A stretch of DNA of 24,967 nucleotides from the IMG/VR virus record IMGVR_UViG_3300017708_000562, positions 1 through 24,967 of that record. One strand, written 5' to 3'. The notes below the pieces were generated by a model. That model did no database searches and was not told the DNA's origin. It saw only the letters and a program-made list of their open reading frames with translations. The position numbers and the translations under genes were made by a program. Numbering within the stretch: the first letter of the stretch is position 1; every line of letters begins with the position of its first letter. The DNA comes from a virus. Shown here one piece after another: positions 3,248-19,400 of this stretch.

Positions 3248-6200
3248 ATGGCAGGTTATACAAGACAGAGTGCTGCTGATATTGTTGCAAGTGCAGTTAT
3301 TAAAGCTGCTCCAATAGACGCAGAATTTCAACAAGTACTCGCAGCATTCAATGCAAGTTCAGGACACAAGCATGATGGCACTACAGCAGAGGGTGCTTTC
3401 ATTCCTATCATTTCTGATACAGATCAGTACAACAAAGTTTGTATAGATACTTCTAATAATCATATTAGATTTTTTACTGAGGTGTCTTCTGCTGCTGCAG
3501 AGCAAGTACGTATTCAAGATGGTGGGATTGTACCTACCACAACGAATGACGTAGACTTAGGAACTTCAAGTTTAAAATTCAAAGATATTCACCTGGCAGG
3601 AAATGGAACTGTTGGAGGTACGTTTGCTGTTACTGGTAATACTACCCTTGGTGGTACTCTTGGTATAACTGGTGTTACAACATTTTCTGATACTGTCTGT
3701 GCTCCTGCTTTTACAGCTACAGGAACTTCAACACTAGCCACAGTAGACATAAACGCAGGTGCAATTGATAACACAGTCATTGGTGCAAGCACTGCTGCTG
3801 CAGGTTCATTTACAACTGTTTCTACTACAGGTCAGGGTACGTTTGCTTCAGTAGACATAAATGGTGGTACTATCGATGGAACTACTGTTGGTGCGTCTAC
3901 AGCTTGTCCTGGAACTTTTTCAAGTCTTACTGCAACAACTGCAAACATTGATGGTGGTACAGTTGATGGTGCAGTTATAGGTGGTTCTTCTAGTGCTGCA
4001 GGTACGTTTACTGCTCTTACTACTACAGGTACATCTACTCATGCAACTGTAGATATTAATGGAGGAGCTATTGATGGGGCCACTATAGGTGGGTCTACTG
4101 CTGCAGCAATAACTGGTACAACAGTTACAGCAGACACATGTTTTGTAGGTGCTTTAGTTGGCAATGTAACTGGAAATGTAACTGGGAATGTCACAGGAGA
4201 TGCTTCAGGTTGTCATTCAGGACACTTTGATGGAATTGTTGGTTCTTCTTCCCCTACTACTGTAACAGGTTCAACTATTACTGCCAATACTTGCTTTGCA
4301 GGAAATCTAACAGGAAATGTAACAGGAAATATTACAGGTAACGTAACTTCAACAGGAACGTCTACCTTTTGTACTCTTCAACTAAATGGAGATATGACAG
4401 CTAACAGTAATAAGATTACTAACTTGGCTGCACCCACTGCTGATTCTGATGCTGTAAACAAATTGTATGTTGATAATGCTGTTGAAGGATTAGATGTAAA
4501 AGGTTCTGTTAAAGGAGCTACTACTGCAAATATTACACTGTCTGGTGCTCAAACTATTGATGGTGTATCTATCACAGCAGGAGATAGAGTTCTTGTAAAA
4601 GATCAGTCTAGTACTGAAGAGAATGGTGTTTACGTTGCTTCTGGTGGTTCATGGGCAAGAGCAGATGACGCAGATACTTGGGATAAACATGTTGGGGCTT
4701 TCTTTTTTGTAGAACAGGGTACAGCAAATGCTGATAATGGTTTTGTTGGTACTGTGGATGCAGGTGGCACTCTCAATACTACAGCTATCACTTTCGTACA
4801 GTTTTCAGGTGCAGGGCAGATTACAGCAGGTACTGGTCTTACTAAGTCTGGTAATACTATTAACGTTGTTACTGCAAACTCTGGTAGGATTGTAACTAAC
4901 GCAGACAACATTGACCTAGCAACTACAGGTGTAAGTGCAGGAACATTTAAGTCTGTTACTGTAGATGCTTATGGACGTGTTACTGGTGGTACAAATCCCA
5001 CTACTTTAGATGGGTATGGTATTACAGATGCGTATACTAAGACGTGCTCTAACACATTACTTGATGCTAAATTAAATCTAGCAGGTGGTACGATGACAGG
5101 GGATATTACCCTTGGATCTAACAAGATTACATCTACAGCTACACCTGCTACTGCAGATACACTGACTCGTAAGGGTTACGTAGATACTATGCTTCCTCTT
5201 GCAGGTGGTACAGTGACTGGTACTATAGATCTAGGATCTAACAAGATCACTACAACCTATACACCCACAAATGGTGTTGATCTCACTACAAAAACATATG
5301 TTGATAGTATACTTAGCTCAAGCACTGCTGCAGCCACGAGTGCTACTGCTGCTGCTACCTCTGCGACTTGTGCTGCATCTTCTGAAACTGCAGCCTGTTC
5401 CTCAAAGGATGCTGCTGCTGCGTCAGCAACCTCTGCAGCAAGTTCACTTGATCAATTTGATGACAGATACTTGGGAGACAAAAGCTCAAATCCATCTGTT
5501 GACAACGATGGGGATGCCCTTCTGACAGGAGCACTCTACTGGAATACAACAGACAATGCACTAAAAATTTATACAGGATCTTCTTGGAGTGCTGCTGCCT
5601 TTACCCTTGGTGATGCTCTTACTTGTATTCAACAGGATACTTCTCCAACTCTAGGTGGAAACCTAGCAGGTAATTCTAAATGTATTACTGGTGTAGCCAA
5701 TCTTTGTGCTACTAATCTTTGTGGTGCAGTCACAGGTAATGTCACAGGTAATCTTACAGGAAATGTTACAGGTAATGTAACGTCTTCTGGTACAAGTTGT
5801 TTTGCTACAGTTTGTACAACTGGTAACAGTACTCTTGTAGGAAATCTTACTGTTAATGGAAACACTACTTTAGGTAATGCAGCCAGTGATACTGTAACTC
5901 TTACAGCAGACGTTGCCTCTAATATTGTTCCAAGTGCTGATAGTACTCACAGTCTAGGTGATAGTTCTAATTACTGGTCACATGGATACATAGATGCTAT
6001 TACAACAACAGGAGCAGTTGTCATTGGGGGTAACTTAACTGTTAATGGTACTACCACTACTATCAACTCAACCAACAAAGTTCTTACTGATGCAATCATA
6101 GAATTAGCAAATGGGGTTACAGGTACACCTACAAATGATGCAGGTATCATTATTGAACGTGGTGACAGTGCTAACGCATTCATAGGTTTTGATGAATCAG

Positions 6201-7216
6201 CAGACAAGTTTATTGTAGGTACAGGATCATTTACTGGTGCATCTACAGGAAACCTTTCTATCACGACAGGCACACTTGTAGCTAACGTAGAAGGTGCTGT
6301 AACAGGTAATGCTACAACAGCTACTTGTTTACAGAATGCTCGAACCATTGGTGGTGTATCCTTTAATGGTTCAGCAAACATAAACTTACCAGGTGTTAAC
6401 ACTGCAGGAAACCAGAACACCTCTGGTAACGCAGCTACAGCAAGTACTTGGGCTACAGCTAGAACACTTTGTATCTGTGGAGATGCTACAGGTTCTGCTT
6501 CTATTAATGGGTCTGGTAATGTAAACTTGACAGTTGCAGTAGCAGATGATAGTCACAATCACACAGTAGCTAACGTTGATGGACTAGCAACATGTTTGTC
6601 AGGTAAAGCTGCAACGAATGGTTCTACCTCTAACAACTTTAATGGTTCTACTATTTGTGCTGCAAACTGTTTCAAATCACCAACTGTTTGTGGAACAGGA
6701 CTTGGATCATTTACATGTGCATGTGGTGCTGTTTGTGTGAAGTCTCCTCTAGTTTGTTCAACAGGTATGGTCTGTGCAGGTTCTTGTTTAAAAGGTCCAT
6801 TCATTGAATCAAACTGTGGATGTGCAGTAAATTGTTATAAATCACCAATAATTTGTGGTAGTACTTGTGTCAAAGGAGAAGTAGTTTGTGGCCCAACTAC
6901 AAGAGGTACGACAGCTTGCTTCACTGACTTCAACTCTACTTCTGATTGCAGATGCAAGGACAACATTACTACAGTAGAGAATGCTTACTGTAAGATTGGT
7001 CAGATCAGGGGTGTCAACTATAACTGGAAAGACTCTGGTAAGTACACACTTGGTGTTGTTGCTCAAGAGGTAGAGCAGACATTTCCAGAACTTGTCACAG
7101 AAGATGATGAGGGTTTCAAGTCAGTCAACTATAATGGTTTGGTTGGTGCTCTTATTGAAACTGTAAAATGTTTACAAGAAAAAGTAGAGGATCTAGAGAA
7201 TGGCTCTAAAGGTTAG
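3248..7216 (+). CDS. Tail fibre with C-terminal S74 intramolecular chaperone
   Basis: A 1322-residue fibre. The N-terminal ~90 residues (MAGYTRQSAADIV...) probably attach to the tail. Glycine/threonine-rich beta-repeats follow (TVDINGGTIDG-type units, about residues 160-290) with three GNVT arrays. Next come blocks common in phage fibres: NKITNLAAPTADSDAVN, ITAGDRVLVKDQSS, AGTGLTKSGNTINV and a second KIT/YVD series. An Ala/Ser coiled-coil-like stretch lies at about 690-735. The last ~90 residues match the S74 family: Ser1232 and Lys1237 of the SDxRxK motif, then GVVAQEVEQTFPELV. Known S74 domains drive trimerisation and are then cut off at the conserved Ser. About 40 cysteines are present, 18 of them in residues 1137-1236. 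They stand at normally Arg/Leu/Glu sites in the S74 domain (DCRCKDN, VKCLQEK). Receptor binding is inferred. Confidence 0.85.
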   Translation: MAGYTRQSAADIVASAVIKAAPIDAEFQQVLAAFNASSGHKHDGTTAEGAFIPIISDTDQYNKVCIDTSNNHIRFFTEVSSAAAEQVRIQDGGIVPTTTNDVDLGTSSLKFKDIHLAGNGTVGGTFAVTGNTTLGGTLGITGVTTFSDTVCAPAFTATGTSTLATVDINAGAIDNTVIGASTAAAGSFTTVSTTGQGTFASVDINGGTIDGTTVGASTACPGTFSSLTATTANIDGGTVDGAVIGGSSSAAGTFTALTTTGTSTHATVDINGGAIDGATIGGSTAAAITGTTVTADTCFVGALVGNVTGNVTGNVTGDASGCHSGHFDGIVGSSSPTTVTGSTITANTCFAGNLTGNVTGNITGNVTSTGTSTFCTLQLNGDMTANSNKITNLAAPTADSDAVNKLYVDNAVEGLDVKGSVKGATTANITLSGAQTIDGVSITAGDRVLVKDQSSTEENGVYVASGGSWARADDADTWDKHVGAFFFVEQGTANADNGFVGTVDAGGTLNTTAITFVQFSGAGQITAGTGLTKSGNTINVVTANSGRIVTNADNIDLATTGVSAGTFKSVTVDAYGRVTGGTNPTTLDGYGITDAYTKTCSNTLLDAKLNLAGGTMTGDITLGSNKITSTATPATADTLTRKGYVDTMLPLAGGTVTGTIDLGSNKITTTYTPTNGVDLTTKTYVDSILSSSTAAATSATAAATSATCAASSETAACSSKDAAAASATSAASSLDQFDDRYLGDKSSNPSVDNDGDALLTGALYWNTTDNALKIYTGSSWSAAAFTLGDALTCIQQDTSPTLGGNLAGNSKCITGVANLCATNLCGAVTGNVTGNLTGNVTGNVTSSGTSCFATVCTTGNSTLVGNLTVNGNTTLGNAASDTVTLTADVASNIVPSADSTHSLGDSSNYWSHGYIDAITTTGAVVIGGNLTVNGTTTTINSTNKVLTDAIIELANGVTGTPTNDAGIIIERGDSANAFIGFDESADKFIVGTGSFTGASTGNLSITTGTLVANVEGAVTGNATTATCLQNARTIGGVSFNGSANINLPGVNTAGNQNTSGNAATASTWATARTLCICGDATGSASINGSGNVNLTVAVADDSHNHTVANVDGLATCLSGKAATNGSTSNNFNGSTICAANCFKSPTVCGTGLGSFTCACGAVCVKSPLVCSTGMVCAGSCLKGPFIESNCGCAVNCYKSPIICGSTCVKGEVVCGPTTRGTTACFTDFNSTSDCRCKDNITTVENAYCKIGQIRGVNYNWKDSGKYTLGVVAQEVEQTFPELVTEDDEGFKSVNYNGLVGALIETVKCLQEKVEDLENGSKG
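4160..4198 (+). repeat. 12-bp coding tandem repeat, GNVT array 1
   Basis: Three imperfect 12-base in-frame units encode GNVTGNVTGNVT plus the following Gly. Third positions vary between units, so the peptide is conserved more than the DNA. Confidence 0.75.
4301..4348 (+). repeat. 12-bp coding tandem repeat, GNVT array 2
   Basis: Four in-frame units encode GNLTGNVTGNITGNVT. The array is of the same type as the one about 140 bases upstream and lies in the same fibre gene. Confidence 0.75.
5735..5782 (+). repeat. 12-bp coding tandem repeat, GNVT array 3
   Basis: Four in-frame units encode GNVTGNLTGNVTGNVT in the second half of the fibre. The three dispersed arrays are candidate recombination points for fibre length change. 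Confidence 0.75.
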
Positions 7217-7415
7217 TGGTACAACTGTAATAGATGACAGCAAGAACATTCCTTCAGGAACACCTTCAGTGCAAGGAACAATAGTTACAGCTACAGTTCT
7301 TACTGCTCCCACTGGCAGCACAGCACAAAGACCAGGCTCACCTGCAACAGGTCAACTTTTTTTTGATACTGATGAGGGAACAGTTGTAACTTACAATGGA
7401 ACAGAATGGGTTTAG
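7200..7415 (+). CDS. Small fibre-associated protein, paralogue of the next gene's N-terminus
   Basis: A 71-residue protein starting at an ATG inside the last codons of the fibre gene (17-base overlap, different frame), so it is probably translated by coupling. Its sequence MALKVSGTTVIDDSKNI ... RPGSPATGQLFFDTDEGTV ... YNGTEW lines up along its whole length with residues 1-70 of the following cysteine-rich protein (MAYKINGTTVVDNSRNV ... RPGSPATGSLYFDTDEGSL ... WDGSEW). This is a short domain often seen at the start of phage fibre proteins, where it probably mediates attachment. The copy here has no cysteine, while the aligned segment of the neighbour has five. It could be a stand-alone collar or fibre-tip protein, or a remnant of a fibre whose distal part was lost. 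The role is inferred. Confidence 0.6.
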   Translation: MALKVSGTTVIDDSKNIPSGTPSVQGTIVTATVLTAPTGSTAQRPGSPATGQLFFDTDEGTVVTYNGTEWV

Positions 7416-7454: not shown

Positions 7455-10400
7455 ATGGCATATAAGATTAATGGAACCACAGTTGTTGACAACAGCAGAA
7501 ACGTTTGTGCCTGTTGTGTTACCTCTTGTTGTATAACTGCAAGTACACGACTTGATGCTCCATCAGGTGATACAGCCAGTAGACCAGGATCTCCTGCTAC
7601 TGGCTCTTTGTATTTTGATACTGATGAGGGATCTCTTATTTCTTGGGATGGCAGTGAGTGGTCTGCAGTAGGAGGAGGTACATCAGGAATAGAAGTAACA
7701 AACATAGTAAGTAGTGCCTGTGATGCTTGGGGAGTTATGACAATTGGTGCTTGCTGCTGCTCAAGAGAAGACCTGAGTGGTGGGACTGGATGTGTATGTA
7801 CTTGGTGTTGTTCTCCTTCTTTTAGACCCACTGTTTTCTATAACAGTGAACAAGCCATTGAGGAATGTTGCCATAGATCCTGCCATGTTACCAATGGAGG
7901 GTACAATTACCACGTTTTTGCATACTGGCATGGACATGCTCCATGTCACTGTGCACGAATAACTGCTGCAGATGGTACAGATCTTGGAAGTGAGAACTCA
8001 CAGATAGGTCACTATGGTTGTTGGATTGGTTTGACAAACCAGGCTTATGGGGCAAGTTTTATTTCTCCTTTAAACAGTTCGAATGGATCTAGAAGCCAGT
8101 ACATAGGTGGACAAACTTATGTTAATTGTCTGTCTACTAAAGGTAAAACAGTTAAACCTTCTATACACATATATAGTGGCAGGGGTGAAGTATCTTTCTT
8201 TGGTGCGAATGAGAATGTGAGTACTAAATTTTGTGGATCTGGTGGAGAAACCAGTCATACTGTTGAAGAGTTTATAAACACAAAAGGAGGTGTCTCTCGT
8301 AGAAAAGGACAAGCTTTAGCAAATAATTGCAATCTTTGTACTAACTGTAAATGTATGTCCTTAGAAGAAGCCTATGGTCCACATTATGTTGATGCCTCTG
8401 CTTGGGGGGCATCTCCTATAATCCCAGGTGCTTTGTGTTGTCTTGGGGGTAATGCTCTACAACATGCTATCTACACAGTTACAGAAGATACTTATGGAAA
8501 TTCAGCAAAAGAATTGTGTGATTTTGCTTACGTAGCTTGTCATAATTTTTTAACAGGAATGTGCTGCTGCCACGCAGGGGCTAATAGAGCTACTATACAT
8601 AATCACAAATGGAATCTTGGGTCTAAATTTTTAGGCAGTAACAACATTAGAATGAACTTTTCAAATCTTAATAGTACTTGTGGATACTGTGAAAAAACTA
8701 ACTGTTTTAATTGTCCTACAAATAAGTTTGTATTAATTTCTAAAAAAGTAGGTTTTGACACAAATGACCCAACTTACTACCCATGTTGTATAGCTAATGC
8801 TAGATGTAATGAAATTGACACTTATAGAACAAACCATGCAGGATGCTGTGCCTGGATGGTGTCGTTTAAAGCTAACCCCCACTGTGGTACTCAAAGTTGT
8901 TATTGTTCTGCACCTCAAGGCACACATGGAGTAGGATGTCTTAGAATACTTTCAAAAGATAAGTGCTACTTAACTTACATTATGAACAACAGAATGACCT
9001 GTTGTTCCTGTTTAAAATGTCAGCCTTACTTTGATTATTGTGCCTGTTCTGGGTCAACTATGTGTTGCTACTGTTTAATGTGTATTGCAAATGAAATTGT
9101 TGAAATAAATTTAGTTACTGGTGCTACGACTAATCATGGGTATATGAAGGGTGCTTGTAATATCTGGATGTTCCCACATTGCTGTGGTGGTAATGAACTA
9201 TGTACTCTTGCGATAGCAGGTGGTAATGCAGGTCCTGCCTGTCATTTCCAAGCATATGCTTTAAGTACTAGTTCACTAACATGTACCACAGCTATTTTAC
9301 CACAGGCTTTAGGTACATATGTTTTAGGTTCAGATGGTATTTGGTCTTGTAACCATTGTTACCTTTACATTCCATATACCACACATAACGAGATGGGTGT
9401 GACATGGGCTACTTGGGATCAAGCAAACAAAAGATACCTGTGTGCTTATAATTTACTACAAGGAATATGTGTGGAATTGCAGAACAATCTGGCAGTCAAA
9501 AGAACATATGCGTATAACTGTGCAAATGCTGCAGATGCGTGTTTTAAAGCTTTTGTCGCAACATTAGGAAGTACGTACCCTTATCAGTGTACTAACTGTT
9601 GTAATATGCTTGCCACTTTAGGTCTGAGTGCATACCCAACAAATTCTCAAGTAGCTTGCTGTAATATGGAAGCAACAATAGGCAACTGGTCAGACAATCG
9701 TTGCTGTTTCTATAAATTTGGGAATGGCTTTCAGTCTTCTAATTCCTATGTAAATCCAACAAATGATCACTTAGTTGCTTATATACAACTTAGTCAATGT
9801 CAAAATAGTACTCGTTATAGATACTTTGATGGTTTTGTTTGTTATGATCTACAAAATAAATGTATTACGTCTTTTCATACATTATCCCCTGATATAGAAG
9901 CCAGAAAAGATGGGTCTTACAACTTTCATGCTACTAGAGACAACATGACAGGGGAAAATCAGAGTTCACCCTTCTGTAGCAGAGCAGATATGTCTGGTAG
10001 ACTTTGGGCAACACCAGACTGCTCTTGTATGGGGTACACTTTTATAAAATGGAAGTCAGGGTGTAGGTGTGATATAGCTACTGGAAATACTTCATATTAT
10101 GGAAGTTCTTTTAAAACCTTTAAAAATGCTACGTGTTGTCAAAGTATTTTAGGATGTTGTTGCCTAGGTAAATGTGTCTGTGCAGACACTGCCTATCATG
10201 CTCGTATGAGTGTTCACAGAATACCTATGAACAAACCTTTTGAATGTGCAGGGCTTGGTTGTGACTGTGATGCTACAAAATACTTACAGGCTGTCCTGGG
10301 TCATGGGCCTTGGGCTTGTTGTGTAAACACTTGCTGTACTACCTTTTGTACAGATTGTTATTGTACATCACGTTATAGAATGTTTCAAAATGCTACAGGT

Positions 10401-10817
10401 GGTGCAGGAGGAACAACAGGAACTACTGATCCAACTTGTTGTCATAAGTGGTGTCCTTGCCATACTGTTATAGTTCTTCCTGCGTTAACAACTTGCCTGT
10501 GCTTTTGTGCCAATGCTTGTATTGGAGGTTCCACTTCAGGTGTGGGAAGGGTCTGTGATGAGTGTTGTTTTGGTGATGACTTACTAACTGAAAGTTGTAT
10601 CTACAAAAATATTAAAGGTTCATATCTTCCTGGAGGAAGTGCTGTGGCAAACATGGTTGACCCTGCTTCTAGTTATTCAGCTAGTCCTTTAGATCAGACA
10701 GATTTGTATACTTCCTCTGGAGCAGCCACAGTTTATCCAATGGTTTATTCCTCTGGAGACACAACTGTTTACAATAGGATTTGTAGATACTTTAAAGAAA
10801 AGGCTGCTTGTATCTGA
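7455..10817 (+). CDS. Extremely cysteine-rich putative tail fibre / adhesin
   Basis: A 1120-residue protein starting at an ATG 5 bases after AGGAAAG. The first 70 residues repeat the fibre-associated domain of the preceding small gene, which marks it as a virion fibre or adhesin. The remainder is not a family I recognise. It is rich in Gly, Asn, Thr and aromatic residues, with likely beta structure and no clear membrane segment or signal peptide. I count about 114 cysteines (roughly 10 %), spread over the whole length and often as CC, CCC, CxC or CxxC. Dense patches lie at about residues 18-26, 100-120, 515-550, 895-920 and 955-1045. Histidine/cysteine clusters also occur, such as HGHAPCHC at about 158-165. 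Candidate roles are receptor-binding fibre, disulfide-hardened shaft, metal-loaded adhesin, or acceptor for sugars made by the adjacent cassette. The last three are speculative. Confidence 0.65.
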   Translation: MAYKINGTTVVDNSRNVCACCVTSCCITASTRLDAPSGDTASRPGSPATGSLYFDTDEGSLISWDGSEWSAVGGGTSGIEVTNIVSSACDAWGVMTIGACCCSREDLSGGTGCVCTWCCSPSFRPTVFYNSEQAIEECCHRSCHVTNGGYNYHVFAYWHGHAPCHCARITAADGTDLGSENSQIGHYGCWIGLTNQAYGASFISPLNSSNGSRSQYIGGQTYVNCLSTKGKTVKPSIHIYSGRGEVSFFGANENVSTKFCGSGGETSHTVEEFINTKGGVSRRKGQALANNCNLCTNCKCMSLEEAYGPHYVDASAWGASPIIPGALCCLGGNALQHAIYTVTEDTYGNSAKELCDFAYVACHNFLTGMCCCHAGANRATIHNHKWNLGSKFLGSNNIRMNFSNLNSTCGYCEKTNCFNCPTNKFVLISKKVGFDTNDPTYYPCCIANARCNEIDTYRTNHAGCCAWMVSFKANPHCGTQSCYCSAPQGTHGVGCLRILSKDKCYLTYIMNNRMTCCSCLKCQPYFDYCACSGSTMCCYCLMCIANEIVEINLVTGATTNHGYMKGACNIWMFPHCCGGNELCTLAIAGGNAGPACHFQAYALSTSSLTCTTAILPQALGTYVLGSDGIWSCNHCYLYIPYTTHNEMGVTWATWDQANKRYLCAYNLLQGICVELQNNLAVKRTYAYNCANAADACFKAFVATLGSTYPYQCTNCCNMLATLGLSAYPTNSQVACCNMEATIGNWSDNRCCFYKFGNGFQSSNSYVNPTNDHLVAYIQLSQCQNSTRYRYFDGFVCYDLQNKCITSFHTLSPDIEARKDGSYNFHATRDNMTGENQSSPFCSRADMSGRLWATPDCSCMGYTFIKWKSGCRCDIATGNTSYYGSSFKTFKNATCCQSILGCCCLGKCVCADTAYHARMSVHRIPMNKPFECAGLGCDCDATKYLQAVLGHGPWACCVNTCCTTFCTDCYCTSRYRMFQNATGGAGGTTGTTDPTCCHKWCPCHTVIVLPALTTCLCFCANACIGGSTSGVGRVCDECCFGDDLLTESCIYKNIKGSYLPGGSAVANMVDPASSYSASPLDQTDLYTSSGAATVYPMVYSSGDTTVYNRICRYFKEKAACI

Positions 10818-10887: not shown

Positions 10888-11814
10888 ATGAAAACTGTTT
10901 TTATGATTGATGGTGGGGCAGGACGTGCTATTGCAGCAATACCTGCTCTAATCAAACACTCAAAAAAGAACCAAGACTTTAGGGTTATGGTTCATGGATG
11001 GGACTCTCTTTACTGGGGCATACCAGAGCTACACGACAAAGTATTTAACCCAGATCAAAAGGGAGCCTTTGAACAATTCTTTTTAGATTCTAATAAAGTT
11101 CTTTCTCCTGAACCATACAGAGTTCCTGGATATTACAGACAAGAAAAGTCTCTTGCAGAAGCATTTGATTATTTAATTAACGAAACTGATGATCACTCTG
11201 ATCTAGGTCTTCCTATCCTAGTTACAAATAGGAATGAGGAACTACAGGCTGCTACCTTTATGCAGCAAACTAAACAACAACAACAAAAACAAAAGACTAT
11301 TGTTATTCAACCTTTTGGTAGGTCTATAGAAAAACCACAAGAGAATGCAATACTCGATCAATCTTCTCGTTCTATTAATCCAGACACGTACCTCAAGCTC
11401 GTTAAGAAATTAGCAACAAAGTACAATCTTATTTTGTTTACTGAGAAAAACTTTTGGATGCCTGAAGACACATACACTATGAAGCCAGAGTCTGACTTAC
11501 GTATGTGGACTGCTTTTATCGATGCAGCAGACTATTTTATAGGCTGTGACTCTGTAGGTCAGCACATGGCGAGAGCAGTAAATACTCCTGGTACTGTTAT
11601 TATTGGATCTACTTTTCCAGTAAATACAACATACCCTAATTATTTTAATATTATAGAAAAGGATGTTCATAAAAAGTATTCACCTATTCGTATATCAGGT
11701 CTTGAAAGTCACTTAGCAGATCGTATAAATGAATCGACTGTTGAGTTTACAGATGAAGAAATAAATGGTATATATGCAACCATCGTAAAAGACATCGAAA
11801 AGAAGGTGAAATAA
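10888..11814 (+). CDS. GT9-like glycosyltransferase (putative heptosyltransferase)
   Basis: A 308-residue protein with a GT-B-like layout. The N-terminal half opens with a short strand and a glycine loop (MIDGGAGRAIAAIPAL, residues 6-21), matching the acceptor-side loop of ADP-heptose:LPS heptosyltransferases. The C-terminal half starts with TIVIQPFGRS (about 138-147). It contains YFIGCDSVGQHMARAV (about 215-230) and then PGTVIIGSTFP, which corresponds to the GT9 donor-site pattern with a DSG-x-H-like core (here DSVGQH). A glutamine-rich linker lies at about 126-136. GT9 enzymes usually move heptose from ADP-heptose, and bacterial autotransporter heptosyltransferases share a related catalytic core. 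Neighbouring genes encode ADP-heptose synthesis enzymes, so heptose transfer is a reasonable inference. The acceptor is unknown; the adjacent fibre proteins and host LPS are the two main options. Confidence 0.65.
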   Translation: MKTVFMIDGGAGRAIAAIPALIKHSKKNQDFRVMVHGWDSLYWGIPELHDKVFNPDQKGAFEQFFLDSNKVLSPEPYRVPGYYRQEKSLAEAFDYLINETDDHSDLGLPILVTNRNEELQAATFMQQTKQQQQKQKTIVIQPFGRSIEKPQENAILDQSSRSINPDTYLKLVKKLATKYNLILFTEKNFWMPEDTYTMKPESDLRMWTAFIDAADYFIGCDSVGQHMARAVNTPGTVIIGSTFPVNTTYPNYFNIIEKDVHKKYSPIRISGLESHLADRINESTVEFTDEEINGIYATIVKDIEKKVK

Positions 11815-11815
11815 C

Positions 11816-13561
11816 ATGAATATTCTTGCAATTAATCCAGGTCATAATGGATCTGCAGCTTATCTAGTAAATGGTGAAATAGATTTTTATATAGAAGAGG
11901 AACGTTTATCTCGTAGTAAGTATGATGGCAATCCTTTTAGAGGTATTCTCTTAGCCATACATAAAGGGATAGATGCGTTAGTTATAGGAGGAACAAGTAA
12001 AGTTTCTGGTTTACCTTGGACTGGGGAAGATCCTTACACAGCTTTAGTAAGAAAATTTTTACCTGATATAATGGTTATTGACCTGTCTCACGAACATCAT
12101 TTAGGTCACGTAGCTTCTGCATTTTATAACTCAGGTTTTAAGGAAGCAGCAGCAGTAATTGTAGATGGTGCAGGAAGTCGAGTAGAAATTAACTATCAAG
12201 AGGGTAGCCCTCCTAACGTTGGCTTTGAAACTGAATCAATATACGACTGTAGCACTAAGAAAAAAGAAGAAGAGCTTCCTTACTTACAACGTGTTTATAA
12301 ACGATTTGCTGACAACAATACTTTAAGTATGGGTAGTGATGATCTAACAATGGATTCCTCTGTAACTATTGTAAAAGCTTATGAGGCTGTCTCTGAATAT
12401 CTTGGGTTTGGTTTTATTGAAGCAGGTAAAACTATGGGTCTTGCACCTTATGGTGAAAAATCAAAAGAAATACCAAATCTTTTTGAGGGTGGTCTTGGAA
12501 ATAAAAATGTTCTTATACCTCACTATCCTGCAGGGGCATTTATTGATCACTCAAGGTATCCTAGTTTATCTATTTCAAATGATAAAAAAACTCTTTGGCA
12601 TACAGACTCATCTCAGCTAACAGACGCAGCTAAAAATCTAGCTTGGGCAGTGCAGGATGAAACTCAAACTCTTGTAGGTGACTTAATTGAAAAAGCTGTA
12701 AAGATAACTGGTAAAAAGAACATCGTTATTGCAGGAGGATATGGTCTTAATTGTGTAGCAAACTATTACTATCAGAAACGTTTTCCTGATCTTAATATTT
12801 TTGTTGATCCTGTTTCGCATGATGGAGGTACAGCTATTGGGTTAGCAAAATTAGTTTACCATCAGAATACCAAAAATGTTCCTGCGAAATTATCTAGTCT
12901 TTACTTAGGTCCAGAAATTAACCCTGATCTTGACCTTATAAATATAGAGGAATTAGTAAATCTTGGTTGTGAGTCTACTGAAAATGTTAAACCTTCTGAT
13001 GTAGCAAAGCTTATCTCTGAGAAGAATACTGTAGCTATTTTCCAGGGACGTTCTGAGGCAGGACCAAGAGCACTAGGTAATCGTTCTATTCTGTATGATC
13101 CTACAGATCCACAAGGAAAAGATTATGTCAATAAAGTAAAAGGACGTGAGTGGTTTAGGCCTTTTGCAGGATCAATACTACAAGAAGACTTTGAGGAGTG
13201 GTTTGATACCTATGGTCTGAAAGAGTCTCCATATATGATGTATGCAATGGACTTCAAACTAGAAAAGCATGGTGAGTGTCCTGCAATTACACATGTTGAT
13301 GGTACTTGTCGTATTCAGACTGTTACTAAAAAACAAAATCCAGTGTACTACTCTTTGATAAAGGAGTTTAAAAAGATAACTGGAGTTCCTATTGTTTTTA
13401 ATACAAGCTTTAACCTAGCAGGAGAACCTCTCGTAGAATCATTACAAGATGCTATAGAAACTTTTGGTAAATCACAAATAGATTATCTTTACTTACCAGA
13501 CTATAAGTTATTATTTAAGGCAACTTCTCAACAAACTGAAGAAGATTCTCAAACACCTTAG
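11816..13561 (+). CDS. O-carbamoyltransferase, NodU/CmcH/TobZ family
   Basis: A 581-residue, full-length two-domain carbamoyltransferase. The N-terminal Kae1-like domain shows NILAINPGHNGSAAYLVNGE (residues 2-21), EEERLSR (about 27-33), HEHHLGHVASAFY (92-104) with its metal/catalytic histidines, VDGAG (116-120), and later GKTMGLAPYG and IAGGYGLNCVANYYY. The C-terminal domain shows FQGRSEAGPRALGNRSIL (about 407-424) and REWFRPFAGSIL. These are the family's hallmark motifs, and no key residue looks missing. The family makes carbamoyl-adenylate from carbamoyl phosphate and ATP and places the carbamoyl group on a hydroxyl, often of a sugar. Pseudomonas aeruginosa LPS core contains 7-O-carbamoyl heptose, so pairing with heptose genes is meaningful. 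AAGGTGA lies upstream of the start. The 3' end overlaps the minus-strand phosphatase by 47 bases. Confidence 0.88.
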   Translation: MNILAINPGHNGSAAYLVNGEIDFYIEEERLSRSKYDGNPFRGILLAIHKGIDALVIGGTSKVSGLPWTGEDPYTALVRKFLPDIMVIDLSHEHHLGHVASAFYNSGFKEAAAVIVDGAGSRVEINYQEGSPPNVGFETESIYDCSTKKKEEELPYLQRVYKRFADNNTLSMGSDDLTMDSSVTIVKAYEAVSEYLGFGFIEAGKTMGLAPYGEKSKEIPNLFEGGLGNKNVLIPHYPAGAFIDHSRYPSLSISNDKKTLWHTDSSQLTDAAKNLAWAVQDETQTLVGDLIEKAVKITGKKNIVIAGGYGLNCVANYYYQKRFPDLNIFVDPVSHDGGTAIGLAKLVYHQNTKNVPAKLSSLYLGPEINPDLDLINIEELVNLGCESTENVKPSDVAKLISEKNTVAIFQGRSEAGPRALGNRSILYDPTDPQGKDYVNKVKGREWFRPFAGSILQEDFEEWFDTYGLKESPYMMYAMDFKLEKHGECPAITHVDGTCRIQTVTKKQNPVYYSLIKEFKKITGVPIVFNTSFNLAGEPLVESLQDAIETFGKSQIDYLYLPDYKLLFKATSQQTEEDSQTP

Positions 13562-14162
13562 TCTTCTTCCTTAACTTCTCTCTTGAAAATTTTTGTAATT
13601 CTTTTTCAGTAGCTACCCCATGACCAGTACGTACTAGGATTGGGGTAGCACCAATTCTTTCAGCAGCTTTAAGGTCAGACATTTTATCACCCACATAAAA
13701 CCCTTTGTCTTTAAACCTAACCTTACCTTCAAACAATTCTTTTTCTGTTCTATGAAACATACCAATATTAGGTTTGGCATAACAGTCCTCTTTTAAAGAA
13801 GACTCAGAGTAGTACAAACCATCAACACTATAGATACCTGCCTTACCAAAGATCTCAAACATACGTTGATGTACTGCCTCTACTTGTTCATGGGTCTGTA
13901 GTCCTTTTATAACACCACCCTGGTTAGTCAGTATAACAACTTTATATCCTTTGATACGTAACTTATGAATAGCTGCTAGGGACTCAGGGTACACTTCAAA
14001 GTCATCAGGATCTGTAATGTAATGATCTCTGTTAACGTTGATAACACCATCTCTATCTAAGCCTACAATAGACTTAGGGAAGACTGTAGGCCAGTCAGGA
14101 GGTAGTTCTTGTTGAGGTTGTTGACTTGGTTCTTGATCAATAATATGTTTAAATCTGGACAT
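13515..14162 (-). CDS. gmhB: HAD-family D,D-heptose 1,7-bisphosphate phosphatase (GmhB-like)
   Basis: A 215-residue HAD phosphatase of the histidinol-phosphatase/GmhB branch. It has a Gln/Pro-rich extension (residues 1-32), then GLDRDGVINVNRDHYI with catalytic Asp36 and Asp38, LTNQGGV with Thr79 (motif 2), AKPNIGMF with Lys130 (motif 3) and YVGDKMSDLKAAERIGA with Asp159 (motif 4). These match GmhB, which removes the 7-phosphate from heptose 1,7-bisphosphate before adenylylation. The usual GmhB zinc-binding loop, with several Cys and a His before the RKP motif, is reduced to one cysteine (Cys127), so the structural zinc site is probably lost. It is the only minus-strand gene in the window. It overlaps the carbamoyltransferase end and starts 16 bases from the divergent nucleotidyltransferase start, leaving almost no room for a promoter. 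Neighbours support the heptose role over histidine synthesis. Confidence 0.75.
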   Translation of the reverse strand: MSRFKHIIDQEPSQQPQQELPPDWPTVFPKSIVGLDRDGVINVNRDHYITDPDDFEVYPESLAAIHKLRIKGYKVVILTNQGGVIKGLQTHEQVEAVHQRMFEIFGKAGIYSVDGLYYSESSLKEDCYAKPNIGMFHRTEKELFEGKVRFKDKGFYVGDKMSDLKAAERIGATPILVRTGHGVATEKELQKFSREKLRKKTKVFENLLQFVEKLP

Positions 14163-14178
14163 ATTGGACTACTGCCTT

Positions 14179-14589
14179 ATGAAAAAAGTTTTTGTTAATG
14201 GTGCATTCGATGTGCTGCACTCTGGACACTTAGATCTCCTTGATTTTGCTAGTATACTAGGGGGCAGATTGCTTGTAGCTATTGACACAGATAGACGTAT
14301 TGAGTATAACAAGGGGAAAGGAAGACCCTTTAACAATCTGTCAACACGTAAATATATAATGTCTATGTTAAAGCCTGTCAATAGTGTAGCAGTCTTTGAT
14401 ACAGACGAAGAGTTACTCAGTATTATACGAAACTATAAACCAGACGTTATGGTAAAAGGATCAGACTGGAAGGGTAAAAAAGTAATTGGGGAGGAGTACT
14501 GTAAGGAAGTAGTATTCTATGAGAGAACCAATGGACAGTCTACAACAAATACCATCGAAGATTTTATTAATAGGAGACAGTTGTTATGA
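14179..14589 (+). CDS. hldE2: Heptose 1-phosphate adenylyltransferase (HldE C-domain / RfaE2-like)
   Basis: A 136-residue cytidylyltransferase-fold protein. It has VNGAFDVLHSGHLDLL with the HxGH nucleotide-binding motif (His14, His17), an ST-x-R-like element near Arg57, VMVKGSDWKGKKVIG (residues 91-104) and the closing GQSTTNTI (119-126). These match the nucleotidyltransferase half of HldE, which converts heptose 1-phosphate and ATP to ADP-D-glycero-D-manno-heptose. In E. coli this domain is fused behind a kinase. Here it is a separate gene placed in front of the kinase. An upstream TTG at 14164 is in frame, but the ATG at 14179 places the conserved KKVFVNGAFD strand right at the N-terminus, as is usual for stand-alone versions. 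The 3' end overlaps the kinase frame by about 71 bases. A related glycerol-phosphate or ethanolamine-phosphate enzyme is possible, but the neighbours argue for heptose. Confidence 0.78.
   Translation: MKKVFVNGAFDVLHSGHLDLLDFASILGGRLLVAIDTDRRIEYNKGKGRPFNNLSTRKYIMSMLKPVNSVAVFDTDEELLSIIRNYKPDVMVKGSDWKGKKVIGEEYCKEVVFYERTNGQSTTNTIEDFINRRQLL
14503..14508 (+). promoter_or_regulatory. Ribosome binding site supporting the 14519 start
   Basis: AAGGAA lies 10 bases before the ATG at 14519, inside the nucleotidyltransferase gene. The alternative kinase start at 14531 has only a weak GAGAG upstream, so 14519 is preferred. The conserved kinase domain begins after both starts, so function does not decide between them. 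Confidence 0.35.
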
Positions 14590-15286
14590 TGAGTATCATA
14601 CAGGAACTGTCACTCGAATAAGCCCTGAAGCTCCTGTCCCTGTCTTTGACCTTGAGTCAACTTTAATTAAAAGGGGTATGGCTTATAATGTTTACAATAA
14701 CTTGGTCAATCTAGGGGCTAGAGTAGATATCATCACAGAGTTTAGAGAACGTAAACACAGATACGTAGATGATAAGACTGGTCAACAGTTAATTAGAATA
14801 GATGAAAAGAGAAAGACTGAGCAGGTAGACACATCAGAGGAAAACTTAAATAATTATGATGTTGTTGTTGTCTCAGACTACAATAAAGGTTTTATTGAAG
14901 AAGGTGATATAAAAGAACTAAGACAAAAGTTTGATGGCCCTATCTTTGTAGACACAAAGAAAAAAGATTTATCTCAGTTTGATGGTTGCTTTGTAAAGAT
15001 TAATCAATACGAGTATGAACAGGCTGAGAAACTTACTGACGAATTAATAGTAACCTATGGCTCAAAGAAAGTCGAATATAAAAATAGGACTTACCTACCT
15101 CCAAGTGTAGAAACTCATGATGTGTGTGGTGCAGGGGATACTTTCCTGGCAGGTCTTGTATTAAGGTATTTGGATACTTATAGTATAGACCAGGCTATAA
15201 AGTTTGCAATGCAAGCAGCAGCCATAACTGTACAACACAGGGGAGTATATGCCCCCACAATCAAAGAGGTAGCTCATGAGACTTGA
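14519..15286 (+). CDS. hldE1: Compact heptose 7-phosphate kinase (HldE N-domain / RfaE1-like)
   Basis: A 255-residue PfkB/ribokinase-family protein. It has KILLIGDSCYDEYHTGTVTR (residues 14-33) and then ISPEAPVPVFD, both very close to the opening of HldE kinases. Later come VVVVSDYNKGFI (about 115-126), FVDTKKKDLSQFDG and ETHDVCGAGDTFLAGL with the catalytic GAGD (204-207). The pathway role is phosphorylation of D-glycero-D-manno-heptose 7-phosphate to the 1,7-bisphosphate. The domain is shorter than the ~315-residue bacterial version: most of the segment between LGARVDIIT and QQLIRIDEK is gone, and the usual GGAANVA is RGMAYNVY. These changes could alter substrate binding. The start lies within the nucleotidyltransferase gene, and the 3' end overlaps the cupin start by 11 bases, so expression is tightly coupled. 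Confidence 0.75.
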   Translation: MREPMDSLQQIPSKILLIGDSCYDEYHTGTVTRISPEAPVPVFDLESTLIKRGMAYNVYNNLVNLGARVDIITEFRERKHRYVDDKTGQQLIRIDEKRKTEQVDTSEENLNNYDVVVVSDYNKGFIEEGDIKELRQKFDGPIFVDTKKKDLSQFDGCFVKINQYEYEQAEKLTDELIVTYGSKKVEYKNRTYLPPSVETHDVCGAGDTFLAGLVLRYLDTYSIDQAIKFAMQAAAITVQHRGVYAPTIKEVAHET

Positions 15287-15632
15287 AGGTTTTGTAAAAA
15301 AAGGTTGGGGATCTGAGCTAATATGGGTAACTAATGACAAGTATTGTAGTAAGTTTTTATCTTTTAATTCTGGTTCTAAATTCTCTATGCACTTCCACAA
15401 GGATAAGGAAGAGAGTTGGTACGTTTTATCAGGCAAGTTTAAAGTGCATTGGATTGACACAGAAGATGCCACTATTAACATTGAGTCCTTGGGAGAGGGC
15501 GATGCCTGGACGAACAAGACTCTTGTACCTCATCAAATCATTTGCGTAGAAGAGGGTACAATCCTAGAGGTTTCTACTCCTGACTCTGTAGAAGACAACT
15601 ATCGTGTTGGCAAAGGTGACAGCCAAGAATGA
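15276..15632 (+). CDS. Single-domain cupin, sugar isomerase/epimerase-like
   Basis: A 118-residue cupin beginning MRLEGFVKKGWGSELIW, which resembles the opening of cupin-type phosphomannose isomerases. Cupin motif 1 is FSMHFHKDKEESWYVLSG, with metal ligands His39, His41 and Glu45 or Glu46. Motif 2 includes VPHQ with His86, and the shape EGDAWTNKTLVPHQI is typical. Such proteins bind a divalent metal and include sugar-phosphate isomerases, RmlC-like epimerases and non-enzymatic sensors. It lies within the heptose gene set, 11 bases overlapping the kinase and sharing ATGA with the epimerase, with AGAGGT upstream. No GmhA-type sedoheptulose 7-phosphate isomerase is seen in the window, so this protein might supply an isomerase step. 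That is a hypothesis only; a second epimerisation of the nucleotide sugar is equally possible. Confidence 0.65.
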   Translation: MRLEGFVKKGWGSELIWVTNDKYCSKFLSFNSGSKFSMHFHKDKEESWYVLSGKFKVHWIDTEDATINIESLGEGDAWTNKTLVPHQIICVEEGTILEVSTPDSVEDNYRVGKGDSQE

Positions 15633-16402
15633 AGATCTTAGTCACTGGTAGCAATGGGTTCATTGGTCAGAACATGGTCAATGCACTAAAGAAAAAGCAC
15701 AAAGTTTCTACTTACGAATGGGGTCAGCAGTATCCACTGATAGATGGGTTAGACTGGGTAGTTCACTTAGGGGCAATAAGCTCCACAACAGAAAAAGATG
15801 TAAGACTAATAGTAAGACAGAATATAGAATCTTCTATTTATTTATATGAAGACTGTATTGAAAAGGGAGTCAACTTTCAGTTTGCTAGTAGCGCCTCAGT
15901 GTATGGCAAAGATCCTAGTAGTTTTAGAGAAGACGCAGATCTTGACCCACAAAGCCACTACTCTAGGAGCAAGGCTTTATTTGAGTACTACATTCAAAGT
16001 AGAAAGGCTCCCATAATAACTCAAGTATTTAGATACTTTAACGTACATGGTCCTAATGAAGACCACAAAGGAGATCAGGCAAGTCCTCACACTAAGTTTT
16101 TAATTCAAGCAAAAGAAACTGGAAAGGTCAAGCTATTCAAGAACTCAGAATATTTCTACAGAGATTTTATTCACGTAGACAAGATTATAGATTATCATCA
16201 AAGATTTTTCTCTATAAAAAAGTCAGGTGTTTGGAACGTAGGTACAGGGTTTGAGAAAAGTTTTTACGAGGTTGCTTTAAATGTATGTAAGGAAACAGGG
16301 GCATCTATTGAATGGGTAGATATGCCAGAGAAATTAAAAGAAAGTTATCAGGATTTTACCAGAGCAGACACTGTAAAACTTTGGAAGACTTTATCACTAT
16401 AG
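15629..16402 (+). CDS. hldD: ADP-L-glycero-D-manno-heptose 6-epimerase-like (HldD family)
   Basis: A 257-residue extended short-chain dehydrogenase. It has an NAD(P)-binding GSNGFIG loop (residues 7-13), HLGAISSTTEKD (46-57), FASSASVYG with the catalytic-region serine (85-93), YSRSK with Tyr111 and Lys115, FRYFNVHGPNEDHKGDQAS (134-152), RDFIHV (178-183), SGVWNVGTG (199-207) and a C-terminal PEKLKESYQDFTRAD. The GAISSTTE, RYFNVxGPxExHKG and YQxFTxAD segments are characteristic of HldD rather than of GalE or general epimerases. HldD inverts C6 of ADP-D-glycero-D-manno-heptose, the last step before transfer. The bacterial enzyme is about 310 residues, so this version is compact. It starts in an ATGA overlap with the cupin stop and closes the cassette, 11 bases before virion genes resume. 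Confidence 0.85.
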   Translation: MKILVTGSNGFIGQNMVNALKKKHKVSTYEWGQQYPLIDGLDWVVHLGAISSTTEKDVRLIVRQNIESSIYLYEDCIEKGVNFQFASSASVYGKDPSSFREDADLDPQSHYSRSKALFEYYIQSRKAPIITQVFRYFNVHGPNEDHKGDQASPHTKFLIQAKETGKVKLFKNSEYFYRDFIHVDKIIDYHQRFFSIKKSGVWNVGTGFEKSFYEVALNVCKETGASIEWVDMPEKLKESYQDFTRADTVKLWKTLSL

Positions 16403-16413
16403 GGTAATATATA

Positions 16414-19400
16414 ATGGCGAACATAGACACAAGTAATATTCAGTCAGACTACCTTGGTCAGAAGGGTCTGTATAATATTGATGCTTTAAAGATAACTGAC
16501 CTTGATGCAGCTAATCAACAAGCAATTCAAGAAAGTGATCGCCATCAAGTGCTAGATGATGGTATTATAGTTTTTGAGGACAACGATGGATCTACTCAAA
16601 TTGTACCTCAAAGTGGTAGTGAATCTAACATTGATATCTCTGGGCTTGATGCTAACGTTGTTAAAGAATTGGCAGATCTTAAGTACTTAGCACAAAACAC
16701 TAGTGTTAAATCTTCAGACCTTAATGCTGTTTATGAAAAGTTAGGTATCGCAGGATCTACTTATAGTGGGTCTGATATAGACAATACTAATGTAGTGGGT
16801 GAAGATATTTTAAAAGCTTTTGGGTATAACCCAGGTGAACAGGGTTCAAACTTTTTCAATGGCAAGACTTCAGACGATTTATCTGTTAATATTTTAAAAG
16901 ATCGTTGGGATAATAAACCTACTGATCAAGATCTTATTGACGCAGGTATAGACCCAAATGAAGTTTCACTTACGAATGATCATGAAGCAAACAGAGCATA
17001 CTTAGCAGAGCAATTAACTAACCAAGGGGCTTCACTTAATGAAAGTAAAGCATATGGTTTAGCTGCAGCAAGTAGAGAATCTTCACGTAGGGAAGACATA
17101 AGGATTGAGAATCTTATTAAGGATAAAGCTTCTGGTAGTTACTGGGATAAAAAAATGTCAGAAACTGGAAAGTCTTTTGGTGACTTGAATCTGAACATGC
17201 TTGAGTGGGATCTTATAAAAAAGAAGAAAGAAGAGACAAGCACTGATACTGGTTCTAGTGGAGGACCTGGTGGAACAGGTACAGTAAATCTTGTTGGGGG
17301 TACTACTACTACTGGTGGAGACATAACAGGTGGTTCGACAGGTGATGGAACTTACACTGGTCCTAACTTTGTTAGCACCCCTAACATTGGTGTTGTTACT
17401 CCTATTTATGGTGATGGTCAGACAGGTCTTACTGAAAAAACTATTCCTACTTACGAAGCAGGGTTAAAATTACAAGAAACACAGTTTGATAATAGAGCTA
17501 TTGAACAAGCAAAATTATATCAACCACAAACACTAGCAGAACAACAGGATGCAGGTACTGCTCCTGCATTTGAGAGTGTTCTTTACAGAAATAGATTTGG
17601 AATGACTCAGTATATACAACACATCAATGGTGTTCCTAGTCAACCTATTCCCCCTGGTTACTTTAGAGTTCAAGGTTTTGGGGCTGAAGACCAGACCCAG
17701 GGTGGTTCTGCTGCTGTAGCTGCTAATAAAGGTGGTGTCATACAAGGTTTTAATCCAGGGGGTACAGTAAACCCTGCCATGAACTTTAAGCCTGGTGGTG
17801 CTGTTGTAGAAGATGATGGAATCTATAAAATTAAGTACCCTGATGGAACCTATTCTCAGGGCTATGACACAGCCCTGAATGCTAATTCTGCTCTTGAAAT
17901 GGGTACTTCTAACCTTGGTCTTCCTAACTATTCCACATACTTGCAGGGTCAGGGGGTTGATATAAATCTCCCAGGGTATGACCAAGACGCATACTATAAT
18001 GCTTATCAGTCTTATCTTTCTGATCCTAGCACCCTACAAAATATTCAAGATCAAGCTGCTGCTGCAGAAAAAGAAAATCAACCTGACGAAACAGGTGGTA
18101 TAAATCAGGATCAACCTACAGATACAATAGATGTTTCTAAAGAGGGTGTTGCTCAAGCACAAAGGGATCTTATAGCTCAAGCTACTGTAGCTCCTGGAGG
18201 TGCTGTCGCTGCTGCTCCTGTTTCTTATATTGACCCTAACGCTACTGGTACTGTCGTTGAGTCTACTGCAGGTCAGGCTCTTCCTACAGCGCCAATGGTA
18301 GGGGAGAACCAAGTAGCACAGATTGAAACTGCTACAACTGCTGATGTTCCTACAAAGATAGGGGCGTCAACAATAACACCTAATAAAGCTTACAGTGATG
18401 TAAAGTCTGCTACTGATAGCATGACTGCTGCACAGTTAGATGGTCCTACCAAAACGATAGATGCTGCTGCTGCAACAGGTACTTCTGTTTCTGGTCTTGA
18501 TGCTGCTACTAGTAAATCAATAGATGTTGTTGCGCCAGATGAAAGAAAATTAAAAATTGGGGAAACAGTTGGTAAAGGTAATCAAGGTCTTAGCTCTGTA
18601 GATCAAAGTAAAGTAGGTGAAGCATTTGGTACTGGTGAAGTGCAAGCTGCATCTGTACAGGATGAACTAGCAGGTCTTATGTCTCAGTTTGAAGGTGGTG
18701 AAACACCTGCTTGGGCTGCAGGGTCTATGAGAAAAGCTTCACAGATGCTTGCTGAAAGAGGTCTGGGTGCGTCTAGTATGGCAGGTCAGGCTGTGATTCA
18801 GGCTGCTATGGAAGCTGCTCTTCCTATTGCTCAGATTGATACAGCAAACAAACAGCAGGTGGCTTTGTTTAAAGCAGAACAAAGAGCTAAGTTTTTGCAG
18901 ATGGACTTTGATCAAGACTTCCAAGCCAAGGTTATAAATGCTGCTAAAGTGTCTGATATAGCAAACCTAAACTTTACTGCTGAACAACAGATTGCTTTGG
19001 AAAACTCTAAGGCTGCAAATACAATGGCACTACAGAATCTGACTAATAAGCAAGCCTTAGTAATGGCAGAGGCTGCTGCGCTATCTCAGTTAGATACACA
19101 GAACCTAAACAATAGACAACAGGCTGCAGTTCAGAATGCTCAGAACTTCTTGCAGGTTGACATGGCAAACTTGTCAAACGAACAGCAGACAGCACTTTTT
19201 AAACAACAGTCTATTATAAGTACTATACTATCTGATCAGGCTGCTGCCAACGCTGCTCTTCAATTTAATGCTACATCAGAGAATCAGACTAATCAATTCT
19301 TTGCGAACCTTGGTGCATCAGTCAATCAGTTCAATGCAGCACAGATGAATGCAATGAAACAGTTTAATGCTGACGAAGTAAATAGTCTGCTAGAGTTTAA

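Follow-up and report, generated by a model that had tools for sequence, protein, structure and literature searches.

The viral record IMGVR_UViG_3300017708_000562 of IMG/VR (positions 1 to 24,967, the whole 24,967-nucleotide stretch that we call the window) encodes, at 7455..10817 on the plus strand, a Cys-rich protein of the fibre or receptor-binding type, with a conserved N-terminal region of 75 residues (beginning MAYKINGTTVVDNSRNVCACCVTSCCITAS) and a fast-diverging body. Directly downstream lies the gene for a 308-residue glycosyltransferase (GT) resembling GT9 heptosyltransferases (10888..11814, +), followed by genes for a NodU-type carbamoyltransferase and for heptose synthesis. This GT shows a strong, near-perfect linkage to Cys-rich tail proteins that are unrelated to one another and belong to several phage families. 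The constancy of this neighbour suggests that the cysteines of host-contact tail proteins are sugar-coated: because Cys content tracks the GT across unrelated proteins, we infer that the enzyme acts on the protein encoded beside it and that cysteine is the acceptor. Judging from gene content, the cysteines are probably acceptors for massed S-linked heptose, itself probably carbamoylated, with acceptor, sugar and GT target all putative.

How general is the association between the GT and Cys-rich proteins? We used the GT, the marker gene of the system, to select loci and then looked in the 6 kb upstream for an open reading frame (ORF) whose Cys content was 6% or higher. A scan of viral contigs with the window GT returned 39 loci at 68–91% identity, and 37 of these had such an ORF; of the other two, one (L043) is truncated and one (L057) is a real exception. 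In genome contigs, all ten true GT loci (two of them from one metagenome-assembled genome, MAG) had a Cys-rich ORF beside the GT, while an eleventh match (L334) proved to be a weak GT9 relative without one. Together, the two GT-selected scans place a Cys-rich ORF beside the GT in 47/49 loci. The Cys-rich ORFs of the viral loci form many groups, between which no sequence similarity was detected.

The association was also recovered from the opposite side. Two peptide patterns taken from adhesins of the phages P-SSM2 and S-SSM7, and blind to the GT, matched 118 viral loci, five of which were chance matches out of frame or antisense. The GT was present in 103 of the 113 real loci (86 within the locus and 17 more elsewhere in the record, from 16 records, because L130 and L175 share one). 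The ten without it comprise eight contigs of ~4–5 kb and two records (G014 and G027) that end at the Cys-rich genes; thus, every true adhesin-pattern record that extends past the adhesins carries the GT. As a control, we examined 127 loci without the GT, which span 1.24 Mb and contain 846 ORFs of 200 residues or more; the only two formal Cys-rich hits among them were artefacts lying antisense to ORFs with 0–0.6% Cys. This control is general rather than matched, since most of its loci came from a pattern meant for cyanophage gp13, the target of which is unverified.

Which isolated phages carry the pair? The Prochlorococcus and Synechococcus myophages P-SSM2, S-SSM7, S-CAM3, S-CAM1, and Sf-FS3 each encode two to three Cys-rich proteins (7.9–11.6% Cys), whose genes are followed closely by those of the GT, the carbamoyltransferase, and the heptose pathway. 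The Cys-rich adhesins often occur in tandem sets of two to three, each set just upstream of a GT (L067, L068, L314, L315, and many of L118–L186). These glycine-rich cyanophage adhesins are not similar in sequence to the window protein. One of the S-SSM7 type (L138) belongs to PF21722 (Gly_rich_2, gp38-like; 26.4 bits against a cut-off of 24.3), and an AlphaFold2 model of the adhesin (predicted local distance difference test score, pLDDT, 78) matched the fibre of cyanophage Pam3 in Foldseek (7ypx, E 2.6e-7). The phages S-T4, P-TIM68, S-SM2, and Sf-CH8, by contrast, carry a heptose kinase but not the system's GT, and no Cys-rich coding ORF was found within 20 kb of their heptose genes. More distant GTs, with ~27–28% identity to that of the window, occur in Aeromonas phage HJ05 and the N4-like Vibrio phages K479 and SBP1. 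In HJ05 the GT directly follows a tail-region protein with 23 Cys, 16 of them in the last 160 residues; in the Vibrio phages it directly precedes a tail-tip protein with 39 (K479) or 41 (SBP1) Cys. A heptose kinase was not detected in any of the three phages, and their Vibrio and Aeromonas hosts are expected to make ADP-heptose. The divergent GTs of the window, SBP1, and HJ05, used as queries, recovered nearly the same set of phages.

One GT locus is archaeal by its contig. In a Candidatus Woesearchaeota MAG (contig JAHFPP010000006.1; L324:4049-9314), a Cys-rich protein is followed by the GT (56% identity), NodU, and a GmhB-like protein. The Cys-rich protein (590 amino acids, 52 Cys) is of an exported type, its N-terminal segment being hydrophobic and its body rich in Gly and Cys. 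Archaeal housekeeping genes flank the module and encode enolase, a Cbf5/TruB-type pseudouridine synthase, an HhH-GPD protein, and an MCM-type ATPase. Archaea do not have lipopolysaccharide (LPS). Because a single hit came from the 371 genomes of the phylum and the contig has low coverage, it may represent a recent transfer or a chimera.

The composition of the window protein itself is as unusual as the initial annotation had claimed. Its hand count of about 114 Cys agrees with the exact count (114 of 1,120 residues, or 10.2%, in a frame running from ATG to TGA), and its estimate of about 20 CC or CCC runs with the 18 CC and three CCC runs present. Adjacent CC pairs are about twice as frequent as in shuffled sequences of the same composition (24 vs. 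11.6 ± 3.0). Of the abundant CxC and CxxC pairs also proposed, the former are moderately enriched (19 vs. 11.4 ± 2.9 in shuffles), but the latter show no excess (14 vs. 11.3 ± 3.0). The view that such a composition lies outside the norm for phage tail proteins fits the remaining virion-type ORFs of the window, which contain 0–0.6% Cys, apart from the upstream fibre described below; the window's enzymes contain 0.3–1.7%. The cysteines are encoded by 93 TGT and 21 TGC codons. A recoding of TGT/TGC was considered and rejected, since the cassette enzymes show normal use of Cys codons, whereas the other virion genes have almost none. Neither the GT cassette nor the second Cys-rich protein, the fibre, had been remarked upon in the initial annotation. 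Another ORF of 1,120 residues (16414–19776), with zero Cys and without a PHROGs or Pfam match, lies farther along the window, and its equal length is probably a coincidence.

Is the Cys richness conserved among relatives? A homologue search with the whole protein returned nothing in the phage collection or in a scan for close relatives, because the body of the protein diverges to ~25% identity. We therefore entered the family through a pattern for SDCRCKDNI, an unusual version of the Peptidase_S74 motif in the neighbouring fibre, which matched 12 viral contigs. Among the matches listed, those contigs seen to extend far enough encode the fibre and then a protein that begins MAYKINGTTVVDNSRNVCACCVTSCCITAS and has 9–13% Cys; nine of the 12 also encode the GT at 85–91% identity, and the other three are fragments of 5–7 kb. 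Nine members, including that of the window, are full length (1,120–1,156 amino acids, 10–13% Cys). Since all nine keep the frame open and Cys-rich, the frame is real, and the possibility that it is not translated, raised when the protein was first described, finds no support. The first 75 residues are nearly invariant in the nine members, and the other eight are only 23–26% identical overall to the window protein; thus, the body evolves fast yet stays Cys-rich. The individual positions are less well kept: pairwise retention of Cys is 0.52 when Cys is scored in the alignment but 0.30 when it is masked, similar to Pro and Asp and lower than Gly. High Cys conservation, as suggested by the value of 0.52, is thus partly an effect of the alignment. 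An AlphaFold2 model of the window protein built from the nine sequences was not usable (mean pLDDT 26).

The gene upstream encodes a tail fibre (3248..7216, +; 1,322 amino acids) with 40 Cys (3.0%) and a C-terminal Peptidase_S74, or endosialidase-type chaperone, domain (PF13884, 47.7 bits against a cut-off of 22). Such a domain is normally cleaved off the fibre. The motif of its catalytic region, TSDCRCKDNI near residue 1230, retains the Ser and Lys of the S74 motif and reads TSDRRLKDNI in the GT-less sister phage CRP-235; homologous fibres in GT-less sister phages have 0–3 Cys in 705–1,419 residues. Adjoining the Cys-rich gene on its upstream side lies an ORF for a Cys-free relative of its N-terminal domain (7200..7415, +; 71 amino acids, 48% identity). 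The suggested tie between this N-terminal domain and fibre-associated proteins holds, in that the domain is common to families of virion proteins. Exposure on the particle, also proposed, is supported by the adjoining S74 fibre and by receptor-binding-type proteins at the same position in other phages.

What kind of residues replace the cysteines? At one-sided Cys sites, the partner is polar, Gly, or Pro in 73% of cases against a background of 59% (P = 0.001), and charged or N, Q, or H in 40% against 24% (P = 0.0001); sites drawn from related pairs are partly dependent on one another in these statistics. Cysteines are gained and lost singly in pairwise comparisons; between K479 and SBP1, for example, 11 are shared and three are private to each. 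Cys counts are odd in 42/64 adhesins and even in 22/64, although proteins paired by inter-chain disulfides could also have odd counts. Taken together, the polar substitutions, the single turnover, and the odd counts accord better with exposed sites that are independent of each other than with obligatory pairing. A search for a sequon around Cys gave no clear consensus, only a mild enrichment of C, H, R, and N and a depletion of P and E.

The remaining genes of the cassette follow the GT. They encode the NodU-type carbamoyltransferase (11816..13561, +), a GmhB-like heptose-bisphosphate phosphatase of the HAD type (13515..14162, −), proteins resembling the C domain of HldE, a heptose-1-phosphate adenylyltransferase (14164..14589, +), and its N domain, a heptose-7-phosphate kinase (14519..15286, +), a small cupin resembling mannose-phosphate isomerase that is conserved in the cassette (15276..15632, +), and an HldD-like ADP-glyceromanno-heptose 6-epimerase (15629..16402, +). 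GmhB, the two HldE parts, and HldD are named from their best NCBIfam hits (E ~1e-30 to 1e-65), all below the equivalog cut-offs; GmhA was not found in the window in the NCBIfam profile search. The resemblance of the window GT to GT9 and LPS heptosyltransferases is weak yet consistent, at 21.1 bits against PF01075 (GT9), for which the gathering cut-off is 22, and E 7e-8 against NCBIfam RfaQ. Among the other GTs, that of SBP1 passes the PF01075 cut-off (25.4 bits), those of P-SSM2, HJ05, and L045 fall below it, and that of S-SSM7 has no match; with the exception of S-SSM7, the GT9 families of LPS synthesis (RfaQ, WaaC/F; PF01075) are the best hits of all GTs tested. The similarity lies in a C-terminal segment containing G-x-D-S-x-G-x-H-x-A. 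The window GT had no match to a SunS-type glycocin S-glycosyltransferase in Pfam or NCBIfam and none to the autotransporter-heptosyltransferase models of NCBIfam at E ≤ 0.1, and sequence searches with the GT and adhesin profiles matched no solved structure. Genes for a tryptophan halogenase, second carbamoyltransferase-like proteins, and prolyl-hydroxylase-like 2-oxoglutarate dioxygenases interleave with the GT cassette in some loci (S-SSM7, or L067; L332; and Sf-FS3, or L314), and are possibly further modification steps.

How might the system work? In the marine group and the cyanophages, the phage would make ADP-heptose through the HldE kinase, GmhB, the HldE adenylyltransferase, and HldD; elsewhere the host would supply it. 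While the particle assembles, the dedicated GT9-type transferase would heptosylate thiols on the receptor-binding proteins encoded next to it, and carbamoylation of the heptose would fall to the NodU-type enzyme. Cys codons would in effect act as "place a sugar here" codons and yield a dense, hydrolysis-resistant thioglycoside coat on the particle, which may serve adsorption (specificity), solubility, or protection. With somewhat less assurance than for the acceptor role, we favour the broader reading that this is a mobile residue-expansion system, in which Cys codons code for S-(carbamoyl)heptosyl-cysteine at up to ~145 sites per protein and a co-inherited GT9-type S-glycosyltransferase modifies surface proteins of phages and, in one case, of an archaeon. 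To the same degree, we lean toward a system that spans several phage families and explains the GT-linked "LPS" heptose genes of cyanophages. Marine Synechococcus LPS contains no heptose (PMC4515613), which makes it a poor target there and leaves the heptose genes of cyanophages in need of another.

Several observations weigh against this interpretation. The gp38-like adhesins keep about 21 Cys almost without exception (retention 0.87 in alignments blind to Cys), as would be expected of structural cysteines, and CCC-type runs are awkward as acceptors. Several Cys lie at conserved positions within the S74 chaperone domain, which normally cleaves itself off the fibre, and the proposed mechanism does not account for them. 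The names of the GT and heptose genes rest mostly on family scores below threshold. GT and fibre genes may lie together because they share a hypervariable region, where phage glycosyltransferases have been read as LPS-modifying (PMC7029224). Finally, the record behind the exception noted above (G044; 47.7 kb, or 47,729 bp) has the GT, NodU, both HldE parts, the cupin, and HldD but no Cys-rich ORF. It alone among 26 compared cassettes lacks GmhB, which is compatible with a cassette decaying after the loss of its substrate, but it stays a counter-example.

Could the cysteines serve another purpose? Dense disulfide cross-linking, metal binding, and thiols as attachment sites for a modification had all been offered, and it is the last that gains support, given the dedicated GT9-type transferase that accompanies the Cys-rich proteins. 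The odd counts, the single-site turnover, and the lack of a CxxC excess in the window protein leave the other two unsupported and less likely, and neither needs a sugar transferase. The strongest competitor, which we nonetheless consider unlikely, is a fibre armoured after lysis by intra- and inter-chain disulfides in oxic seawater, with a cassette that modifies host LPS and lies nearby through the hypervariable tail region. Disulfides are common in extracellular proteins, and both the near-invariant adhesin cysteines and the enriched CC pairs of the window protein agree with them. They do not account for the linkage of a single, specific GT to proteins of unrelated folds in different phage families, for gains and losses at single polar positions, or for the absence of Cys-rich proteins from heptose-cassette phages that lack this GT, and an LPS-directed cassette is hard to reconcile with the same GT beside a Cys-rich protein on an archaeal contig.

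A sugar placed instead on Ser, Thr, or Asn, with the cysteines serving folding or enzyme recognition, appears slightly less probable still. The best-characterised protein heptosyltransferases (TibC and AAH) do modify Ser and not Cys (PMC4358343), and Ser and Thr are abundant in the Cys-rich proteins; yet the fibres of GT-less sister phages keep abundant Ser and Thr and lack the Cys, and the window GT has neither the four-Cys iron finger of TibC nor a match to the autotransporter-heptosyltransferase models. We give little weight to Cys clusters that bind a metal or cofactor (Zn, Fe, or Cu), for instance as a means of exploiting host metal uptake: the CxC, CCC, and GRCCGQGG motifs conserved in the adhesins would suit such a role, but Cys are spread over the whole body and turn over singly, CxxC is not in excess in the window protein, and the linked GT is left without a reason. 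Least plausible of all are free reactive thiols that form covalent bonds with thiols on the host surface or engage in thiol-disulfide exchange as the phage adsorbs; the exposed character of the Cys sites agrees with them, but oxidation is expected in seawater and the GT linkage goes unexplained.

If heptosylated cysteines are indeed what these genes produce, they would be the first massed cysteine glycosylation known to us and a new way in which viruses build the surface that contacts the host; we know of no cysteine sugar coating as a protein decoration in viruses, and in the open-access literature searched, neither Cys-rich phage fibres nor their glycosylation is described. Some cyanophage sugar genes, so far read as LPS-modifying or possible stuffer DNA, would acquire a function, and a natural family of S-glycosyltransferases with many substrates would be useful in glycoprotein engineering. 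Model phages have already been isolated (P-SSM2, S-SSM7, S-CAM1, S-CAM3, and Vibrio phage SBP1).

How does the proposed system compare with known ones? None of the protein glycosylation systems compared here, namely bacterial autotransporter heptosyltransferases (BAHT), glycocins, and mycobacteriophage glycans, joins Cys-packed virion adhesins with a GT9-type enzyme. BAHT enzymes (TibC and AAH) heptosylate Ser of the autotransporters TibA and AIDA-I (PMC4358343) and would share with the proposed system a dedicated heptosyltransferase, ADP-heptose, and a large, exposed, beta-rich adhesin that is multiply modified. However, TibC has an N-terminal beta-barrel and needs the four cysteines of its iron finger (Cys-339/342/358/370), while the window GT has one Cys in 308 residues, and the candidate substrates here are phage tail proteins (in L324, a Gly-rich, exported-type protein) with Cys as the candidate acceptor. 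In glycocins (sublancin, glycocin F, and pallidocin), a dedicated transferase from the same gene cluster places a sugar on Cys sulfur (PMC6405829, PMC9877059), as is predicted here; these are short secreted peptides with glucose or N-acetylglucosamine on specific Cys, whereas our proteins contain as many as 145 Cys each and are accompanied by a GT9-like enzyme and genes for ADP-heptose. Mycobacteriophage virions carry glycans at the C termini of capsid and tail tube subunits, as described in the cited summary of that work (Freeman 2023, cited in PMC12619734), and virion protein glycans are likewise predicted here from genes; set against that summary, our proteins are Cys-rich and of the receptor-binding type, with a Cys content tied to the GT. 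From the GT9 enzymes of LPS synthesis (RfaQ and WaaC/F), the system's GT differs in scoring far below the NCBIfam equivalog cut-offs and in sitting with Cys-rich tail proteins, including in phages of hosts with heptose-free LPS and on one archaeal contig. The "LPS gene clusters" of cyanophages P-SSM2, S-SSM7, and S-SM2, for which it was left open whether they are functional or "stuffer DNA" (Sullivan 2010, PMC3037559), include genes of this system (T4-GC 304, 305, 307, and 308, the carbamoyltransferase 303, and T4-GC 302, which is the GT), and it is the GT-bearing subset of these clusters that we find tied to Cys-rich proteins encoded just upstream.

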